Positions 37,339 through 52,115 of a stretch of DNA of 64,000 bases are shown piece by piece. Numbering within the stretch: the stretch's first letter is position 1; every line of letters starts with the position of its first letter. The stretch comes from Brachybacterium avium (GTDB lineage: Bacteria > Actinomycetota > Actinomycetes > Actinomycetales > Dermabacteraceae): NCBI RefSeq assembly GCF_002216795.1, contig NZ_CP022316.1:3129205-3193204 (forward strand). The letters run 5' to 3'. Below the pieces are notes generated by a model. The model did no database searches. It was not told where the DNA came from and saw only the letters and a list, made by a program, of their open reading frames with translations. The position numbers were made by a program, and so were the translations under genes.

Positions 37339-37974
37339 TCAGAACCGGCTGACGTCCCCGGCGCCCTCCCGAGCGATCACCAGATCCCCGCCGGACAGAT
37401 CGATGACCGTGGTCGGCTCCGTGCCCACCTCGCCGGAATCGATGATCGCCTCGACCTGCCCATCCAGCAGGTCCTGGACCACCCAGCCCTCCGTGGGCGG
37501 CTCCTCCTGCTCCGGCATCAGCAGGGTGGAGGAGACGATCGGCGCGCCGAGCGCCTCGACCAGAGCATGGGCCACCCGATGATCGGGGATCCGCACCCCG
37601 ACGGTGTGCTTCTTGGGATGCGCCATCTTCCGGGGCACCTCGCGGGTGGCCGGCAGGATGAAGGTGTACGGCCCGGGCGTGGCGTTCTTGACCAGTCGGA
37701 AAGTCGGGTTCGAGACCAGCACGAACTGGCCCAGCTGCGAGAAGTCCGCGCACACCAGTGTGAAATGGTGATCCTTGCCGACCTGACGGATCCGACGGAT
37801 GCGCTCGAGCCCCTCAGCGTTGCCGAGCGCGCAGCCCAGCGCATAGCAGGAGTCGGTGGGGTAGGCGATCAGCCCACCCGCTTCCAGCACGGCCACCGCC
37901 TGCTCGATCAGGCGGGGCTGCGGATCCTCGGGATGGATGTCGAGATACTTCGCGGAGTGACGTGACCTGGCCAT
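37339..37974 (-). CDS. YrdC/Sua5-family threonylcarbamoyl-AMP synthase-like protein
   Basis: 211-residue YrdC-fold protein, closest to the YciO subgroup. AYPTDSCYALGCALGNAEGL, RIRRIRQVGKDHHFTLVC, NATPGPYTFILPAT and KHTVGVRIPDH are characteristic nucleotide/RNA-binding segments. True TsaC/Sua5 makes threonylcarbamoyl-AMP for tRNA t6A37; the YciO branch has weaker or unknown activity. ATG 37974 has a TACCAT hexamer 5 nt upstream. Its upstream flank is a 54-bp tandem repeat array. Confidence 0.88.
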   Translation of the reverse strand: MARSRHSAKYLDIHPEDPQPRLIEQAVAVLEAGGLIAYPTDSCYALGCALGNAEGLERIRRIRQVGKDHHFTLVCADFSQLGQFVLVSNPTFRLVKNATPGPYTFILPATREVPRKMAHPKKHTVGVRIPDHRVAHALVEALGAPIVSSTLLMPEQEEPPTEGWVVQDLLDGQVEAIIDSGEVGTEPTTVIDLSGGDLVIAREGAGDVSRF

Positions 37975-37979
37975 ACCCG

Positions 37980-37985
37980 ATGGTA
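37980..37985 (-). promoter_or_regulatory. -10 hexamer for leaderless YrdC/YciO gene
   Basis: TACCAT on the minus strand, 5 nt from the ATG at 37974 and 8 bp from the first tandem repeat. Confidence 0.45.
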
Positions 37986-37992
37986 CGCCGGA

Positions 37993-38176
37993 GCCTCACA
38001 GCACGTCGATCAGGCTGCGTCTGTTGCCTGGTCTCCTGCCGTTCGTGCCTCACAGCACGTCGATCAGGCTGCGCCTGCTGCCTGATCTCCTGCCGTTCGT
38101 GCCTCACAGCACGTCGATCAGGCTGCGCCTGCTGCCTGATCTCCTGCCGTTCGTGCCTCACAGCACGTCGATCAGG
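37993..38176. repeat. 54-bp tandem repeat, 3.4 copies, each with a hairpin
   Basis: Copies start at 37993, 38047, 38101 and a 22-bp partial at 38155. Copies 2 and 3 are identical; copy 1 differs at a few bases. Each full copy contains GATCAGGC and GCCTGATC separated by 10 bases, a perfect 8-bp stem; in copy 1 one pair becomes T-G. The last copy includes the TGA stop of the upstream DUF952 gene (minus strand), so the unit arose by duplicating the gene's 3' end. It lies between two same-strand genes. Confidence 0.95.
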
Positions 38177-38537
38177 CGACGACCACGAACTCTCGGCCGA
38201 TCCACTTGGTGCGGCGCAGCCGGACCACGGCGCTGACCGGCAGCGGACCGTTGATGTGGGGGTAGCCGCGACCCTTGCCATCCACATCCGCCTCGATGTC
38301 CACGGCGATGCCTGCCGCCTCGACGCGGCCCACGTCGATCTCGAGGATCACCAGATCCGAGGGGCGGTCGGGGTAGATGCGCTTGGCGACCTTGGAGACC
38401 TGCTCGGGCCAGGAGGCGTGGATGAACCCCTCGTCGGCGAGCTCGCGATCGCGCGTGGCGCGGGTGTACGAGCCTGACCGGACGGCCGCCTCCCAGGCGG
38501 GCAGTTCGGTGATGTGCCAGATCAGGGGCGCGGGCAT
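38172..38537 (-). CDS. DUF952 family protein
   Basis: 121-residue protein of the DUF952 family (fold related to ADP-ribosyltransferase-like small domains). It opens LIWHITELPAWEAAVRSG and has GFIHASWPEQVSKVAKRIYP and PHINGPLPVSAVVRL, the family's usual ends. Function unknown. ATG 38537 lies 7 nt from a TACACT hexamer; the transcript should be leaderless and starts from the same 30-bp segment as the GNAT gene at 38562. The stop codon is inside the last copy of the 54-bp repeat. Confidence 0.88.
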   Translation of the reverse strand: MPAPLIWHITELPAWEAAVRSGSYTRATRDRELADEGFIHASWPEQVSKVAKRIYPDRPSDLVILEIDVGRVEAAGIAVDIEADVDGKGRGYPHINGPLPVSAVVRLRRTKWIGREFVVVA

Positions 38538-42962: not shown

Positions 42963-43036
42963 TTGTCTGACGTTCTTATCAGCAGATGTCGTGGCGTTCA
43001 GGTCCGCGACCCCAGAGGACTCAGGAGAGGAGCCCC

Positions 43037-45697
43037 GTGGAGTTCCAGTTCACCACCCGTTCCCAGGAGGCCGTCACCGCCGCCGCGGAGAGAGCCGTCG
43101 AGCTCGGCAATCCTCAGATCAGCTCCCTCCACCTGCTGTGGGCGCTGGCCGGGCAGGCCGACGGCATCGGCCGGGCCTGCCTCGAAGCGGTCGGTGCAGC
43201 GCCGGATGAGGTGATCCGCCGCAGCGCCGAGGCCATCGAGGCGCTGCCCCGTGCCAGCGGCGGATCGTCCCCCACCTTCGTCGGCACCGGATTCGATGCC
43301 CTCGAGGCTGCCCGCCGGGAGGCGGATGCCGCCCACCGCAGCTACCTGTCCACCGAGCATCTGATGATCGGCATCGCGCTCGGCAAGGACCCGGCCGCCC
43401 GGCTGCTCGCAACGGCCGGGGCGACGCCGAGAGCCCTGCGCGATGCCGTCCAGGAACTGACCACAGGAGATGACCGCATGACCCAGATGGACTCCCAGAA
43501 CCCCGAGGGCTCCTTCCAGAGCCTCGAGAAGTTCGGCGTCGACCTCACCGAGCTGGCCCGCGAGGGGCGGCTCGACCCCGTGATCGGCCGAGACGGCGAG
43601 ATCCGCCGCGTGGTGCAGGTGCTCTCGCGCCGCACCAAGAACAACCCCGTGCTGATCGGAGAGCCAGGTGTCGGCAAGACCGCCGTGGTGGAGGGTCTGG
43701 CCCAGCGGATCGTCGCCGGCGACGTCCCGGACTCGCTGCGCGGCAAACGCCTGGTCTCGCTCGACCTCTCCTCGATGGTCGCGGGCTCGAAGTACCGCGG
43801 CGAGTTCGAGGAGCGGATGAAGGCCGTCCTCGACGAGATCCGCACCAGCGACGGCCAGATCATCACCTTCATCGACGAGCTGCACACCGTGGTCGGTGCC
43901 GGCGGCTCCGGGGACGGCTCGATGGACGCCGGCAACATGCTCAAGCCCATGCTCGCCCGCGGCGAGCTGCGGATGGTCGGCGCGACCACGCTGGACGAGT
44001 ACCGCGAGAACATCGAGAAGGATCCCGCGCTCGAGCGGCGCTTCCAGCAGGTGCTGGTGGGGGAGCCCAGCGTCGAGGACACGGTCACGATCCTGCGCGG
44101 TCTCAAGGACAAGTACGAAGCGCATCACAAGGTCACCATCACCGACGCCGCCCTGGTCGCGGCCGCGGCCTTGTCCTCGCGCTACATCTCCGGCCGCCAG
44201 CTGCCGGACAAGGCCATCGACCTGGTCGACGAGGCGGCGTCCCGGCAGCGCATGGAGCTGGACTCCTCGCCGGAGCAGCTGGACATCCTGCGCCGCCAGG
44301 TGGACCGGCTGAAGATGGAGGAGCTCGCGCTCGCCGGCAGCGAGGACCCGGGCAGCCTCGCCCAGCTGGAGTCCGTGCGCTCGCAGCTGGCCGATCGGAC
44401 CGAGCAGATGGACGAGCTCTCGGCCCGCTGGGAGCGGGAGAAGGCGGGGCTGAACCTCGTCGGCGACCTCAAGGCGCAGCTCGAGCAGCTCCGCATGCAG
44501 GCCGATCGTGCCCAGCGCGACGGTGATCTGACCGCCGCCTCCAAGATCCTGTACGGAGACATCCCGGCGCTCAAGGAACAGCTGCGCGACGCCGAGGAGC
44601 AGGAATCCGGTGAGCACAGCGAGCAGCAGCGGCCGATGGTCGCCGATCACGTCGGGCCCGATGACATCGCCGAGGTGGTCGAGGCGTGGACCGGGATCCC
44701 GTCGGGCCGGCTGCTGCAGGGCGAGACCGAGAAGCTCCTGCAGATGGAGGAGATCATCGGTCGGCGCCTGATCGGCCAGCAGCGAGCGGTCGCCGAGGTC
44801 TCGGATGCCGTGCGCAGGGCCCGGGCAGGGATCTCGGATCCCCACCGGCCCACCGGCTCCTTCCTGTTCCTCGGGCCCACGGGGGTGGGCAAGACCGAGC
44901 TGGCCAAGGCCCTGGCCGAGTTCCTCTTCGATGACGAGCGGGCGATGATCCGCATCGACATGTCGGAGTACGGCGAGAAGCACACCGTCTCCCGGCTGGT
45001 CGGCGCGCCCCCGGGATACGTCGGCTACGACCAGGGAGGGCAGCTCACCGAGGCCGTGCGGCGCAGACCGTACTCGGTGGTGCTGCTCGACGAGATCGAG
45101 AAGGCGCATCAGGACGTGTTCGACGTGCTGCTGCAGGTGCTCGACGACGGCCGGCTCACCGACGGGCAGGGACGGACCGTGGACTTCCGCTCCACGATCT
45201 TCATCCTCACCTCGAACCTCGGGGCCGTCGCGCTGCAGGACCAGACGCTCACCGAGAAGGAGAAGCATGATCGGGTGATGCAGGTGGTGCGGGCCTCCTT
45301 CAAGCCGGAGTTCCTCAACCGTCTGGACGACATCGTCATGTTCGATGCTCTGGAGCGGGAGGAGCTGAGCCGCATCGTCTCGCTCCAGATCCAGGAGGTG
45401 GCGGAGCGGCTGCACGATCGCCGCATCGAACTGGACGTCTCCGCGGACGCCACCCGCTGGCTCGCCGAGGAGGGCTTCGACCCGCTGTACGGGGCGCGTC
45501 CGCTCAAGCGCCTGGTGCAGAAGGAGATCGGCGACGGCCTCGCCCGGCTGATCCTGCGCGGCGAGGTGCAGGACGGCCAGCGGGTGCGGGTCCGGGCCGC
45601 GGCCGATGGACCGGGCCTGGTCCTCGAGGTGGACGGCTCCGAGCCCGGGGCACCCGCGCCCTCCGACCGGGAAGCGCCAGACGCTGCGCAGAGGTGA
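43037..45697 (+). CDS. clpB: ATP-dependent disaggregase ClpB (Hsp100)
   Basis: 886-residue Hsp100. A Clp-N repeat domain (to about residue 145) is followed by AAA1 with Walker A GEPGVGKT and Walker [12 protein letters not shown], the coiled-coil middle domain (about 390-530), and AAA2 with Walker A GPTGVGKT. It pulls proteins out of aggregates together with DnaK. The GTG at 43037 has AGGAGAGGAG upstream; more distal in-frame codons overlap the HAIR promoter. No ClpP-binding IGF/L loop was noticed, as expected for ClpB. It ends in a strong hairpin. Confidence 0.97.
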
Positions 45698-45754: not shown

Positions 45755-46927
45755 TCACCCCTGGGGGTCCCAGGGTGCCGGCAGGTATCGCCGGCGCAGG
45801 TCGTAGTAGAACTCGGGGTCGGTCAGCTGTTCCTGGCCGCGCTCCCAGCCCAGTCCGACCTCCCGGACGGACTGCTCCGCCGTGCGCAGTGCCTCCGCGG
45901 AGTGAGCATTGAAGGGCTCCACCAGGTCTGCGCTGGTCCCGATCAGATCGGACGTGGTGTCCGCGGCGGCAGGGAGCGCGGAGACGGTCAGGAGGTCGGC
46001 GGAGACGCCCACCTGTCGAAATGCCCCTCGCTCGAAGGCGCGGAAGGCCCCGGCCGCGTCGCCGTCGCCGGCAGCGGTGAGGACCTCGTCGCTGGTCTGC
46101 GTCACATTGGCGACTCCGCGGTCGATGGCCGAGAACGTCTGGTCGAGCACCGAATGCTCTCCGAGAACTGCTCCCGAGACCTCGTGCGGCAGGCGGGCCA
46201 GCGACACCGCCGGGACGAACGCCCCGTACCCGTTGTCCTCGAGCTTCAGCTCGACCCGGTCGAAGCCGTCGCCGATGCTCTCGTGGACGCTCATCAGCGT
46301 CTGGGCGGTTCCCACTGCGGGAACCTCTCCCAGCGCGAGCTCGCGCCGGTCCTGCGCCGCGGCCAGGATCTCCGGATCCAGAGCGAAGTCCTCCCCCTCG
46401 GGCAGCGGCCGTGACGGAGGCGTGGCCCAGGGAGGGTCCTCGGCCATGATGGGGCCCGCGATGACGGGATCGAGCTCGTCGAAGCTCGGCAGATCCGGCA
46501 GGAGCTCGGTCGGGTCCTCGGCCATGAACGGGCCGGCGATCCTGGGCTGCAGGTCCTTCCAGCGCGAGCCCTGCAGGGAGGGTAGCCGGTCGAACTCGTC
46601 CTGGACCCACGGTGGGGTGGCACGCACCCCGAGGGGGTCCCCTCCGAGCCTCGTGACATCATCCGGCTGGGAGCAGAGATCCTGCTCCTGGGCCTCCTTC
46701 CCGAGCAGCTCTCCGAGCTTCCGCAGCTTCTCGACGAGGAGGATCACCGTCTCCGCCAGGTCTTCGGTGCATCGATGATGCTCCTCGGCATCAGGGCCGA
46801 TCCAGTCGGCGGCGCGTGCGCACAGGAGAGCCCGCTGGATCAGAGCCCGCAGCCGGACAGCGCGGGTGTCGAAGATGGTGGACAGCTCGGTCAGGTGCTC
46901 GGTCTCGCATCCCCAGAAAGTGTTCAT
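45755..46927 (-). CDS. WXG-like secreted-protein family member B, unknown function
   Basis: 390 residues, first part helical. WIGPDAEEHHRCTEDLAETV (about residues 38-57) parallels WTGPDAEEFRTRFDDAHHRC of the neighbour at 48210, a W-x-G turn between two helices as in WXG100/LXG proteins carried by type VII-like secretion. Two near-identical 13-residue units (ending IAGPFMAEDP and IAGPIMAEDP) lie at about 130-175. The C-terminal half shares an LGEHS-containing stretch with the decayed copy at 47411 and has no motif I recognise. ATG 46927 begins the family-like N-terminus; the open frame upstream is leuS-derived. A toxin or secreted effector is possible but not shown. Confidence 0.68.
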   Translation of the reverse strand: MNTFWGCETEHLTELSTIFDTRAVRLRALIQRALLCARAADWIGPDAEEHHRCTEDLAETVILLVEKLRKLGELLGKEAQEQDLCSQPDDVTRLGGDPLGVRATPPWVQDEFDRLPSLQGSRWKDLQPRIAGPFMAEDPTELLPDLPSFDELDPVIAGPIMAEDPPWATPPSRPLPEGEDFALDPEILAAAQDRRELALGEVPAVGTAQTLMSVHESIGDGFDRVELKLEDNGYGAFVPAVSLARLPHEVSGAVLGEHSVLDQTFSAIDRGVANVTQTSDEVLTAAGDGDAAGAFRAFERGAFRQVGVSADLLTVSALPAAADTTSDLIGTSADLVEPFNAHSAEALRTAEQSVREVGLGWERGQEQLTDPEFYYDLRRRYLPAPWDPQG

Positions 46928-47022
46928 GGCGCGACCGTAGACAGCCCGCCCTCCTCGCCGTTGTGCGGGAGCACCGAGTGTGGATGGCCCGGCGATGTGG
47001 AGGAAGCGTCTCCTCGAGGGAT

Positions 47023-47410
47023 CCCTGATGATCAGCTTCCGCACGGCCTGCTCCGCCAGCAGCTTCTTGACGCGCTCCTCGGCCATCACCGACGCCTCCG
47101 GATCGGCCTCGGAGATCTCCGGATCGACCTCGATGCGGTGACGGACCTTGCCCTTGACCTGGATCACGCGGATGACGCGCTCGGCCTTCAGCAGCTCCGG
47201 ATCAGCGACCGGATAGGCGACGCGGGAGATGCGCCCGGTGCGCCCTCGCCGCTGCAGGAAGCGCTGCGAGGCGACCACGGCCCGGGTCTCCCACGGCCGG
47301 CCCGTGCGGGTTGCGGGAGTAAGTGCAGGCGAACGCTTGGAGGCAGCCCTGGCTGAACCGTCGATGGAACGGCTCCTGGCTGGAGGACTCGCCGCGGTCG
47401 AGCAGCACCT
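47023..47410 (-). pseudogene. internally deleted duplicate of the leuS 3' end
   Basis: Three blocks match the intact leuS without gaps: 47023-47245 to 49184-49406 (about 18 mismatches by eye in 223, roughly 92% identity), 47248-47300 to 49691-49743, and 47312-47410 to 49940-50038. The missing parts of leuS are about 284 and 196 bp. Protein traces are SSQEPFH and [15 protein letters not shown]. There is no start and the frame changes, so it cannot make a synthetase. It runs directly into the decayed WXG-like copy upstream. Confidence 0.92.
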
Positions 47411-47918
47411 GGATGCCGTTGTGGAAGGTTCCGGAGGTCGAGTGCTCGCCGAGAACGAATCGGCCCAGTGCGCGGTTCAGGTCCATCGGCAGCAGCGGAG
47501 GGCTTGTGATCTCGAGATCCTGGACATCGGCGAAGATGTGGCTGGCGAGGCCGAGAGCATCGGCGGTGTCGAAGGCATTCCCCGCAGCCGGCGCTTCCCG
47601 AAGCCCGGGCAGGGCCGCGACGCTGTGCGCGGCGCTCGTTGGATCATTGTGCAGCTCGGGTGTTCCCGGCGGCGCTGAGCGGTCAGCGCCCGTGGGGCCG
47701 CGGGCGGCAGCCCACGGCCAATAGCGGGGACGGGGGAGTCGGCAGTACTCGCGGCACCTTGGGCATCGGTCCGGGCACCCAGCGCGTCGCCGAGGGCTGT
47801 CCGAGTGCTCGTGATGGTCTCCCCCGCCGCGCGGTGCGTTGGGCTCGGTCGCGGCATCGTGTACCTGCTGCGTGCAGCCGTGCAGGGCATCGGGTCCGGC
47901 GCTGAGGAATCCAGTCAT
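47411..47918 (-). pseudogene. decayed WXG-like family copy C
   Basis: Starts at ATG 47918 with MTGFLSAGPDALHGCTQQV, resembling the N-terminus of copy A (TFLGADTDQLRSTARS). It then shifts frame, continuing as AAGETITSTRTALGDALGAR in a second frame, and returns with NRALGRFVLGEHSTSGTFHN, which matches the ALGEHS region of copy B. It then joins the leuS fragment at LLDRG, where leuS has LFDRG, a likely microhomology junction. GGAGG lies upstream of the ATG. At least two frameshifts make it non-functional. Confidence 0.6.
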
Positions 47919-48209
47919 GCGGTATCCGTCAGATCCTCCGCAGCGGGTGTGCGCCCGCGGCGCGGACGGTGGACCCGCTTGTGATGGGAAAGAGACGCGA
48001 CCGGTGCATCCCACGGGGACTCTTCGCCGATGGACGGACCGCGCTGCAGGTCATCCTCTTGATCGCGGGTCCCGCCGCCGTAGGCGGCTTCTGGTCGGAC
48101 TCGAACGCGTCGCAGAACCTCGGCCTTCACTCCAGCAGGCCCTCGGCGGGTCGCTGATCGGCAACGCCGTGCTGAACCTCGTGGCGCGGCCTCTGCACCG
48201 CGCCGTGCA
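47919..48209. other. gap between WXG-like copies, no confident gene
   Basis: About 290 bp. On the plus strand a short frame (47969-48157) holds one hydrophobic stretch, TALQVILLIAGPAAVGGFW, and a second frame continues with QQALGGSLIGNAVLNLV; together they look like a broken small membrane protein, possibly an immunity-type partner, but the evidence is weak. Confidence 0.3.
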
Positions 48210-49064
48210 TCAGCGGAAGGTGTTCCAGGCACCGGTCAGGGTATTGGCCACTCCGAACACCGGGTTCGCCGTCAGGAGGAGGTAGGCACCGACTCCGGCC
48301 GAGGAACGGATGACGTTGGCGCCGGTGCTGCCCTTCTCGAAGCCGAGACTCGCTGAGAGGACCATTGCGGTCATCTCGCCCTGCTGCACCGCGAATCCGT
48401 TCGACTCGATCTTCCCACCCCAGTCCATGAGCGACGCGCCCTCGGGCATGAAAGCGGGACTCACACCGTCGATGACGCCCCCGATGCTGCCGATGCCAGG
48501 GACGAAACTCAGCGCGATGCTTCCGATATCTCCGATCGCCGATCCCGTGTCCCCGTCGCGGACGTGCCCGATCAAGTCTGCGACCTCGGGAAGAGCGCCG
48601 ATGACCGGCATCGTCTTCATGATCCTGCGGGCCCATGGGGAATCTTTCAGGAAATCACCGATCTTGCCGATGCCCTGGCCGCGGTACTCGTCCAGGATCG
48701 TGTCGATCCAGCTCGGGGTGCCGGGGCGATCAGCTCCCGATCCGGAGTCGCTGCCCGCTGACGGGCCGCGGTCGGGGGAGCCGCCGGCTCCGCTCCTCGC
48801 GTCCAAATCGGAGGTCTCGTCCTGCTCCTCGGCCTCTCGCTCCAGCCGAGCACCGCGCTCCGAGAGCGTCTGCGCGGTCTCGGAACAGCGGTGGTGTGCA
48901 TCGTCGAAGCGGGTACGGAACTCCTCAGCGTCGGGCCCCGTCCACTCGACTCCGCGCACTAGGGGCCCGAGCGTCGTCAGCGTCTCCTCGAGGCGCTGCG
49001 CGCCGTCGGCGACGGACCGGGCCGTGCTGCGGAGCTGGTCGGTGTCGGCGCCGAGGAAGGTCAT
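48210..49064 (-). CDS. WXG-like secreted-protein family member A, unknown function
   Basis: 284 residues. Residues 1-85 form two predicted helices around VEWTGPDAEEFRTRF, the W-x-G hairpin of WXG100/LXG proteins. An acidic, Gly/Ser-rich linker (about 85-120) leads to a C-terminal domain with hydrophobic Gly-rich stretches (MPVIGALPEVADLIG, SIALSFVPGIGSIGGVIDGV, SSAGVGAYLLLTANPVFGV), like pore-forming or membrane-active toxins. ATG 49064 has TACCGT 7 nt upstream and no ribosome-binding site, so the mRNA is probably leaderless. It sits 90 bp after the leuS stop. No T7SS core gene (EccC) is in the window. Confidence 0.7.
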   Translation of the reverse strand: MTFLGADTDQLRSTARSVADGAQRLEETLTTLGPLVRGVEWTGPDAEEFRTRFDDAHHRCSETAQTLSERGARLEREAEEQDETSDLDARSGAGGSPDRGPSAGSDSGSGADRPGTPSWIDTILDEYRGQGIGKIGDFLKDSPWARRIMKTMPVIGALPEVADLIGHVRDGDTGSAIGDIGSIALSFVPGIGSIGGVIDGVSPAFMPEGASLMDWGGKIESNGFAVQQGEMTAMVLSASLGFEKGSTGANVIRSSAGVGAYLLLTANPVFGVANTLTGAWNTFR

Positions 49065-49071
49065 GCCGGCC

Positions 49072-49077
49072 ACGGTA
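49072..49077 (-). promoter_or_regulatory. -10 hexamer for leaderless WXG-like gene A
   Basis: TACCGT on the minus strand, 7 nt from the ATG at 49064. Confidence 0.5.
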
Positions 49078-49154
49078 GAAGACCCCACTGCGGACCGCGA
49101 TGGGGAGAAGTCCCCATCGCTGGAGCGGGGGCCGGAGCACCACCCCGCTCACGG

Positions 49155-52115
49155 TCACACCACGATGTTGACGATCTTCGGGGCCCTGATGATCAGCTTC
49201 CGGATGGTCTGCCCCGCCAGCAGTTCCTGGACGCGCTCCTCGGCCATCACCGCGGCCTCCAGATCGGCTTCGGAGATCTCCGGGTCGACCTCGATGCGGT
49301 GGCGGACCTTGCCCTTGACCTGGATCACGCAGGTGACGCGCTCGGCCTTCAGCAGCTCCGGATCAGCGACCGGGTAGGCGACGCGGGAGATGCTCCCGGT
49401 GTGCCCCAGCCGCGTCCACAGCTCCTCGGCCAGGTGGGGCGCGAACGGCGCGACCATCAGCACCAGCGGCTCGACCGTCTCCCGGGGCGTGGATCCGGTC
49501 GAGGTCAGCTGCTTGGTCAGCTGGTTCACCAGCTCGATGAGCTTCGCGATCGCGGTGTTGAAGTGCATCCGCTCCATATCGCGGGCTACCCCGTCGATGG
49601 CGCGGTGGGTCGCCTGGTTCGTGGCGAGATCAGCCGGCTGCTCGGAGACGGTCAGGCGACCGGTCTCCTCATCGACCACCAGGCGCCACAGCCGCTGCAG
49701 GAAGCGCTGGGATCCGACCACGGCCCGGGTCTCCCACGGCCGGGACAGATCCAGCGGGCCCATCGACATCTCGTACACGCGCAGCGTGTCTGCGCCGTAC
49801 TCCTCGTACATGTCGTCCGGGGCGACCGCGTTCTTCAGCGATTTGCCCATCTTCCCGTACTCCTGGGAGACGCTGTGGCCCTGGTAGGTGAAGGTGCCGT
49901 CGGGCTCGGCCACGACCTCTTCTGCCGGGACGTGCACGCCGCGGGAGTCGGTGTAGGCGAAGGCCTGGATATAGCCCTGGTTGAACAGTCGGTGGAAGGG
50001 CTCCTGGCTGGAGACGTCCCCGCGGTCGAAGAGCACCTTGTGCCAGAACCGGGCGTACAGCAGGTGCAGCACCGCGTGCTCCACGCCGCCGACGTACAGG
50101 TCCACCCCGCCCACGCCGCCGTCCTCACGGGTGCCCAGCCAGTACCGCTCGTTCTCGGGACGCACGAGGACCTCGTCCTCGGTGGGATCGATGTAGCGCA
50201 GGTGGTACCAGGAGGAGCCGGCCCACTGCGGCATCGTGTTCGTCTCCCTCAGGTAGCGCTTGGGTCCCTCGCCCAGGTCCAGCTCGACCTCCGCCCACTC
50301 TGCGGCCCGGGAGAGCGGTGTCTGCGGCTCCGTGTCCGCATCCGTCGGATCGAAGGTCCTGGGGGAGAAGTCCGCGACCTCGGGCAGGTCCACGGGCAGC
50401 ATCGACTGCGGCAGCGGGATCGGCACCTCGGGCGCGGCCGGGTCGTAGACGATCGGGAAGGGCTCTCCCCAGTAGCGCTGGCGGGAGAACAACCAGTCGC
50501 GCAGACGGAACGTGGTACGAGCGCGGCCGAAGCCCTTCTGCTCGGCATAGGCGGTGGCGCGCTGCTTCGCCTCGTCCTTGTCCAGACCGTTCAGATCCAG
50601 ATCCGCGCAGGCGGAGTTGATCTTCTCGCCCTCGCCGGTCCAGGCGCCGCCCTCGAAGTCCGCCGGTGGCCGCACCGTGCGGATCACCGGCAGGTCGAAG
50701 CGTGCAGCGAACTCGAAGTCGCGCTCGTCCTCGGCAGGCACGGCCATGATCGCACCGGTGCCGTACCCGGTCAGCACATAGTCCGCGGTGAACACCGGCA
50801 GCTCGCGGCCGTCCATGGGGTTCTTCGCGAACAGGCCGGTGAACACCCCGGTCTTCTCGCGGTCGTCCGCCGTGCGCTCGTCCTCATCCAGCGAGGCAGC
50901 CCGGGCCTGGTAGGCCGCGACAGCGGCACGCGGGCCCTCCGCGCCACCGGTCCAGGCGTCCTTCGTGCCGGCCGGCCACCGGGCGGGCAGTGCCGCGGGC
51001 TCGGTCAGCAACGCATGCTCGGGGGAGAGTACGCAGAAGGTCGCCCCGAACAGGGTGTCGGCACGAGTGGTGAACACGTCGAACCTTGCGTCGGTGCGGC
51101 CTTCCAGCCCGGAGGCGGGGAAGGTCACCTGCGCGCCATGGCTGCGACCGATCCAGTTCCGCTGCATCGCCCGGATCGACTCCGGCCAGTCCACCCGGTC
51201 CAGGTCGTCGATCAGCCGATCCGCGTAGGTGGTGATGCGCATGTTCCACTGCCGCAGGCGGCGGGTGAAGACGGGGAAGTTCCCGCGCTCGGACCGGCCC
51301 TCGGCGGTGACCTCCTCGTTGGCCAGCACGGTGCCCAGGCCCGGGCACCAGTTCACCGGGGTCTCGGAGATGTAGGTCAGGCGGAAGCAATCGGCCAGCT
51401 GCGCGATCTCCTCTGTGGAGGCTGTGCGCACGTCGGCGGGGCTGCGGCCGGCCCAGTCCGCGGGCAGCTCGATGCCCTGGCGATCGGCGAGGGCGAACGG
51501 GTCGACCGTGCCTGCCCGCAGCTCCTCGCACAGCTCCGCGATCGGGCGCGCCCGGCCCGTGATGCCGTCGACGTTCGGGGCCTCGGGGTCGTACCAGGAG
51601 TCGAAGATGCGCAGGAAGATCCACTGCGTCCACTTCACGAACTCCGGATCCGTGGTCGACAGCGTCCGTCGCGGATCATGGGACAGACCCAGCCGATGCA
51701 GCTGACGGCGCATGTTCGCGATGTTCGACTCGGTGGTCTGGCGGGGATGGGTGCCGGTCTGGACCGCGTACTGCTCCGCCGGCAGGCCGAAGGCGTCGTA
51801 GCCCATCGTGTACAGGACGTTCTTCCCCTTCATGCGCTGGTGACGGGCGACCACGTCGGTCGCGATATATCCCAGCGGATGACCCACATGCAGCCCTGCC
51901 CCGGAGGGGTAGGGGAACATGTCCATGATGTACATCTTCTCGGCGGCTTCGTCGCCCGAGGTGGCTGCGGCCTCCTCGATCGACTCGGCCGAGCCGCGCA
52001 GCTCGCCGACGGGGTTGTCGGCGTAGAAGGTGCCGTCCTCGTCCCAGCGCTGCTGCCAGCGGCGCTCGATCTCGTCCGCCACGTCGGCGGTGTAGCGGTG
52101 CGGGGCCTCGCTCAT
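49155..52115 (-). CDS. leuS: leucyl-tRNA synthetase
   Basis: 986-residue class Ia synthetase. HIGH-type motif is in [17 protein letters not shown], the CP1 editing domain holds [14 protein letters not shown] and [15 protein letters not shown], and KMSKS-type reads [12 protein letters not shown]. The C-terminal part has [15 protein letters not shown] and ends KIVNIVV. It charges tRNA-Leu and edits mis-charged Ile/norvaline. ATG 52115 has TCGGAGG upstream. It is preceded by a 190-nt leader with a Leu-codon leader peptide and a terminator, and its 3' end has been duplicated at 47023. Confidence 0.97.

Follow-up and report, generated by a model that had tools for sequence, protein, structure and literature searches.

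The interval between leuS and clpB in Brachybacterium avium is part of the 64-kb stretch of DNA analyzed here (the window), taken from a genome of 3.57 Mb. It holds two intact open reading frames (ORFs), here called A and B, whose N-terminal heads share the motif W-x-GPDAEE, with decayed sequence between them. The original prediction, drawn from the window alone, recognized both genes and their common head correctly, but also identified a decayed third copy of the same kind (copy C, 47411-47918). This last element does not hold up as a WXG gene: it has no head, its upper part belongs to a dead major facilitator superfamily (MFS) transporter gene, and the rest is probably a scrap of a B-type gene. 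Read along the minus strand, the order is leuS, A, the decayed stretch, a leuS remnant and B, with clpB beyond:

49155-52115, minus strand: leuS, intact, leucyl-tRNA synthetase (TIGR00396, 855.9 bits against a cut-off of 548.4)
48210-49064, minus strand: gene A, accessory gene with a WXG-like head and its own C-terminal family (ORF of 284 aa)
about 47805-48216, plus strand: remnant of a decayed MFS transporter gene (profile and DNA matches to leuS-linked MFS genes)
47411-47804, minus strand: probable scrap of a second B-type gene, with an LGEHS block, abutting leuS sequence (7.5 bits to a B profile)
47023-47410, minus strand: decayed second leuS 3' end with two internal deletions (match to leuS)
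46928-47022, minus strand: upstream flank of B, aligning collinearly with the spacer between leuS and B in sister genome G030
45755-46927, minus strand: gene B, resident gene with a WXG-like head and a conserved C-terminal family (ORF of 390 aa)
42986-45697, plus strand: clpB, convergent border of the interval (Clp/AAA+ domains)

The gap between B and clpB is 57 bases, and clpB forms an identical border in those relatives whose contig extends far enough. Comparisons covered 38 genomes of the genus and 47 of the family, with B. avium (G000) counted in both; DNA 3' of leuS was retrieved for all 37 relatives, 448,595 fetched bases in total (individual loci carry L numbers).

By its distribution, gene B (head motif WIGPDAEE) is the old resident of the interval, orthologous across the genus. 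A WXG-head profile, built without L047, L050, L061 and L064, found a gene between leuS and clpB in 33 of the 37 relatives. All 37 of its matches lay inside that interval, four loci having two, and there were none in the rest of the fetched bases; the loci without a match were L065, whose contig stops 632 bases past leuS, L074, L076 and L079. When C-terminal halves were clustered, B grouped with 30 relatives in a cluster of 31 proteins, while the broken gene of L047 stood alone and 10 of the 104 proteins, among them those of L048 and L050, lacked the length needed for inclusion. The four genomes nearest by a LeuS tree (G031, G030, G037 and G009) all read leuS-B-clpB with no further gene in the interval, and an alignment of 47025-45760 runs unbroken through the spacer and B of G030 (L044). 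Comparison of B with six relatives gave ratios of nonsynonymous to synonymous substitution of 0.38-0.64, against 0.10-0.23 for the C-terminal 400 residues of LeuS, which points to a gene that is fast-evolving yet constrained. Five other genera of the family were sampled at nine loci, one of them too short to judge and one more without clpB, and no WXG gene was found at the equivalent place. The leuS-clpB interval of this genus is a home site for WXG-headed genes. At L061 (G016), B is in two parts: the head directly follows leuS, the tail comes about 3 kb later, and the ORF between them looks transposase-like by eye.

Gene A has a different standing. Its head carries WTGPDAEE, and a profile of B and its orthologues matches A at E 3e-28, but over profile positions 7-143 only. 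A comparison of the C-terminal halves by profile, a check proposed with the original prediction, gave a probability of 1.2% that A-type and B-type halves are related. As the C-terminal families are unrelated and the head alone is common to both proteins, A as a copy of B is ruled out. The C-terminal half of A clusters instead with the second WXG gene of L051, L066 and L070. Four of the 37 relatives have a second WXG gene in the interval, and the fourth, at L055, has a C-terminus of yet another type. Polymorphic toxin systems combine a conserved head with C-terminal domains that are exchanged at a single locus, and have an immunity gene alongside. Here the resident gene has one C-terminal family (31 proteins), but the second slot holds at least two types, that of A in four genomes and the other in L055; no adjacent immunity gene was seen. 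The single-copy layout of the nearest relatives counts against the prediction on its own terms, yet the heads are WXG-like, as it had proposed. A contig search with A found one weak relative, on a contig of Brachybacterium sp. EE-P12, and this contig gave no megablast match to the fetched loci at E 1e-50. The C-terminus of A matched no family. A reading of A as a glycine-zipper toxin was dropped, the hydrophobic stretch at residues 180-198 not being conserved in the three relatives.

The piece of leuS that had been placed between copy C and B is real. Positions 47252-47023 match leuS 49413-49184 at 91% identity (E 8e-92), with two further collinear pieces at 47300-47240 (90%) and 47410-47296 (79%). 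The three pieces are a single leuS 3' end from which about 180 and about 270 internal bases have been lost at two places; the repeat covers about 880 bases of leuS, and the deletion joints, as judged by eye, lie at short repeats. The 20 differences from leuS in the 230-base piece are distributed 7/5/8 across codon positions, and those between the leuS genes of the four sister genomes and of B. avium fall mostly at the third position; this even spread marks the leuS copy as dead DNA. When the final 148 residues of LeuS were searched for, a second match (E 1e-5) was found in one of the 38 genus genomes, that of B. avium, and in none of the 37 relatives, even though four of these have a second WXG gene. 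The leuS end therefore does not act as the general recombination site that had been envisaged. In the family set, a genome of another genus (G046) has a short second LeuS match at a contig start and its main match near a contig end, which we read as a contig break.

The leuS remnant is not of one piece. When 14 sequences were compared, private changes in the remnant numbered 26 of 127 columns in the 5' part, 1 of 41 in the middle and 10 of 230 in the 3' part (5' against 3', p 3.7e-6); with ten junction columns removed, the 5' part retained 19 of 117 (p 3e-4). By this measure the remnant is a mosaic whose 5' and 3' parts differ in age, a difference that fits later homogenization of the repeat by recombination with leuS. 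The mosaic and the local look of the two leuS sequences would both be accounted for if leuS had later converted the 3' part.

Between A and the leuS remnant, the decayed stretch preserves traces of two further genes. An intact leuS-linked MFS gene is found in six genomes, always between leuS and B and on the opposite strand; five of these genes are 70-73% identical to the sixth, and two MFS relatives elsewhere in the B. avium genome share 35-37% identity with them. When a profile of the six was searched against all six frames of the window, its three best matches were collinear, at about 47802-48216 on the plus strand (E 0.024, 0.031 and 0.73). The next best was 2.9, so it is their collinearity that matters. 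A DNA search with the 806 bases of 47411-48216 against the 38 genomes gave as its top three non-self matches the leuS-linked MFS genes of G019 (4e-13), G006 (7e-10) and G010 (1e-5), covering about 48037-48181; the remaining listed matches were 2e-4 or worse, short and scattered. Order and orientation are those of the leuS-linked MFS gene in the six relatives. On these matches, 47805-48216 is a decayed MFS transporter gene of the leuS-linked kind.

The adjoining 47411-47804 contains the LGEHS block, which had been taken as a shared mark of these genes; it is present in this probable B-type scrap, but A is without it. A first tblastn search of the middle region was swamped by composition-driven matches, and profile and shuffle tests were used instead. 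The second B profile, from which the broken or partial L047, L050 and L061 were excluded and in which L064 was trimmed, scored the stretch at its 7.5 bits, a value matched by 4 of 2000 dinucleotide shuffles and by 3 of 796 other stretches of the window. In an earlier scan of the whole window, the LGEHS frame had ranked fourth (E 0.17), with an unrelated frame ahead of it at E 0.09. Based on this, the stretch is probably a scrap of a second B-type gene. A plasmid origin of the block was also considered and rejected, 47411-49150 having no plasmid match.

From leuS, the layout runs through A, the remnants of an MFS gene and probably of a B-type gene, and the leuS remnant to B. Its first part parallels the order in the six relatives (leuS, MFS gene on the opposite strand, B), and since this order and that of the sister genomes (leuS-B) stand here in series, stacking is the simplest account. 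Taken as a whole, we consider it moderately probable that stacking placed a second interval version before the resident one and that A and B are proteins probably exported by a type VII secretion system (T7SS). A second interval version, consisting of A, an MFS gene and a B-type gene, would have been inserted between leuS and the resident B, with one side anchored by leuS homology and the other closed by illegitimate joining within the second B-type gene. This would have left the old leuS 3' end behind the insert. Decay would then have overtaken the surplus leuS end together with the MFS gene and the second B, while A survived. Both the recombination route and the donor are inferred. The rearrangement looks like a single, one-off event rather than a new duplication system.

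Several observations weigh against this account. Only four of the six leuS-linked MFS genes are matched by the remnant DNA, that of G004 weakly (4e-4), and those of G012 and G034 are unmatched. The B-type scrap is backed at about p 0.002-0.004 only. The relatives of A in the intervals of L051, L066 and L070 sit after B, not before it. While the MFS remnant resembles another interval type, no genome among the 38 offers a leuS-A-MFS-B donor, and the leuS 3' end contains no foreign stretch, although a distant donor should leave one: identity of its last 150 bases to the four sister genomes is 89-91%, which falls inside the range that the other bins span, with no clear drop. The leuS remnant shares 6 sites with its own leuS where all four sister genomes differ, and 4 sites the opposite way, which indicates that it stems from the B. 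avium lineage or one near it. For the export part of the account, the EssC-like protein and the small WXG100-like proteins described below all score under their curated cut-offs.

The same site sharing favors a tandem duplication, within the lineage, of a unit made of the leuS 3' end and a WXG gene, the first WXG copy then turning into the LGEHS scrap and A coming later; the scrap also abuts the leuS remnant directly, as at a duplication joint. We nevertheless find this unlikely. The four sister genomes lack an MFS gene in the interval and so offer no source for the dead one. The scrap has also drifted much further from B than the remnant has from leuS: when the DNA was compared with itself, the leuS pieces were detected but no match between B and the scrap. 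The unrelated C-termini of A and B speak against it as well. The original form of this idea, a single unit of leuS end and WXG gene that was duplicated and then diverged, fails on the genus-wide orthology of B, on the separate C-terminal family of A and on the dead MFS gene within the block.

Integration of a mobile element into the 3' end of a gene usually leaves the intact gene first, then the cargo, then the displaced 3' end and the old neighbors, and genomic islands in the 3' ends of housekeeping genes have this form of intact gene, cargo and displaced gene end. The layout matches, and the interval could in principle be the remnant of an integrative element whose arrival supplied a fresh leuS end and pushed the old one to the far side. 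This appears highly improbable. The eight further ORFs of the block gave no integrase or transposase match (one weak match, to DUF6243, at E 0.039); attachment sites are usually shorter than the repeat of about 880 bases, which is long for one; and the MFS cargo is of a chromosomal type, homologous to a gene of the interval, and 47411-49150 has no plasmid match.

For the stacking account, by contrast with what the original prediction had supposed, there is a precedent. In T6SS (type VI secretion system)/Rhs loci, new effector modules have been proposed to be stacked before old ones by one-sided homologous recombination, in a model of displacement arrays built by homology-facilitated illegitimate recombination (PMC5361080), and one-sided homologous insertion has been described experimentally, at low frequency, in Escherichia coli conjugation (PMC3240628). 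The B. avium interval resembles these arrays in having an effector-type gene beside a conserved upstream anchor, with older genes pushed back and fragments left (PMC5361080). It differs in that the anchor is the housekeeping gene leuS, that no immunity genes were seen, and that there is one event in one of 38 genomes.

Export of A and B has been considered in the light of other genes in the genome. T7SS-type genes, whose presence elsewhere had been suggested as a check, are found at about 677-685 kb, where an EssC/EccC-like ATPase (TIGR03928, 545.5 bits; cut-off 778.4) is accompanied by small WXG100-like proteins. No T7SS core component beyond the ATPase was identified; a search for EccB was without match, but its 14 controls were equally silent. 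In the same locus (L112:10381-18830), the ATPase has an FHA domain, and two pairs of small WXG100-like proteins begin alike, about 1 kb apart, in the manner of a tandem repeat. The heads of A and B are hairpins roughly 100 residues long whose turn carries W-x-G. Because A scores below the WXG100 cut-offs (PF06013, 16.7 bits against 27.3; TIGR03930, 19.8 against 44.85) and B has no WXG100 family match, we call them "WXG-like" rather than WXG100. Elsewhere in the genome, related heads occur in fusion with a calpain-type protease, with DUF6973 and with regions that weakly resemble lipases. One such WXG-headed protein (L113:4957-6120) carries the calpain-type (C2) protease domain PF00648 at E 1e-8.

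A and B thus resemble WXG100/LXG-type T7SS substrates in their N-terminal hairpin with a W-x-G turn, in the varied C-termini found in the genome and in the T7SS-type ATPase, but their heads fall under curated cut-offs, their C-termini are without family and no immunity partner adjoins them. As judged from these sequence features, both are probably exported by the organism's own EssC-type T7SS via the WXG-like hairpin, and their differing C-terminal halves are probably the active or structural parts. A rather doubtful alternative is that they are intracellular or structural proteins that merely share a helical hairpin and are not secreted effectors. It would suit the position of B at one place genus-wide under moderate constraint and its lack of any Pfam, PADLOC or NCBIfam family (one chance-level NCBIfam match). 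It would also suit the absence of an adjacent immunity-like gene, the A-B stretch holding only decayed sequence and the eight other ORFs having no Pfam match at E 0.01, and the fact that hairpin fold matches are common in structure searches. The W-x-G at the turn, the TIGR03930 match of A (even if below cut-off), the fusions of related heads and the T7SS-type ATPase argue the other way. Single-sequence structure models reached a mean predicted local distance difference test score (pLDDT) of 44 for B and 47 for A, and owing to this low confidence the fold search was run with the hairpin of A only. A defence-system reading was set aside, neither A nor B having a PADLOC match.

WXG-headed genes are also found beside other synthetase genes of the genus. 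They occur within about 7 kb of the ileS 3' end at 34 of 36 loci (one of the two misses is a locus of only 2.3 kb), no ileS locus being counted for G029, which had no ileS match, or for G030, with an ileS fragment at a contig edge. The corresponding figure for valS is 19 of 38 loci, of which four are shorter than 5 kb, and three of the 19 matches are in short frames. All 53 of these genes are convergent with the synthetase gene, whereas A and B lie on the leuS strand, after leuS; examples among loci L119-L191 are L155:5756 at the valS locus and L156:2550 at the ileS locus of B. avium. C-terminal clusters follow the locus (ileS 34, leuS-B 31, valS 16, leuS-A 4) and are mutually unrelated by profile comparison; the one exception to this link with the locus is L117, a WXG gene at 1767 kb in B. 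avium that groups with the ileS proteins at 28% identity. Some 10 kb separate valS from ileS in B. avium, so the three sites are not independent. The counts cover leuS, ileS and valS, and an enrichment at synthetase genes is a lead only. Elsewhere in the window, a minus-strand frame near 38.0-38.2 kb (37814-38477) contains a short in-frame tandem repeat of the unit RRAVRHERQE.

The initial observation is largely real but was misread in part. The interval contains one resident gene and one accessory gene, plus the scraps of an apparent single stacking event. What seemed a new duplication system becomes a single event that can be traced through the dead MFS gene and the broken end of leuS. Across the genus, uncharacterized T7SS-type proteins are tied to particular loci in the B, ileS and valS families; searches of titles and abstract openings returned no study of T7SS in the genus and no link of WXG genes to leuS or other synthetase genes. 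It is a speculative and somewhat unlikely possibility that the 3' sides of the class Ia synthetase genes leuS, ileS and valS are standing sites for T7SS-type WXG genes, each with a C-terminal family of its own, and linked functionally or mechanistically. If true, this would mean a functional link, for example co-regulation with amino-acid supply, or the use of synthetase ends as preferred landing or recombination anchors, of which the leuS remnant would be an instance, and would represent an undescribed genomic partnership between a family of translation enzymes and the cargo of a secretion system.

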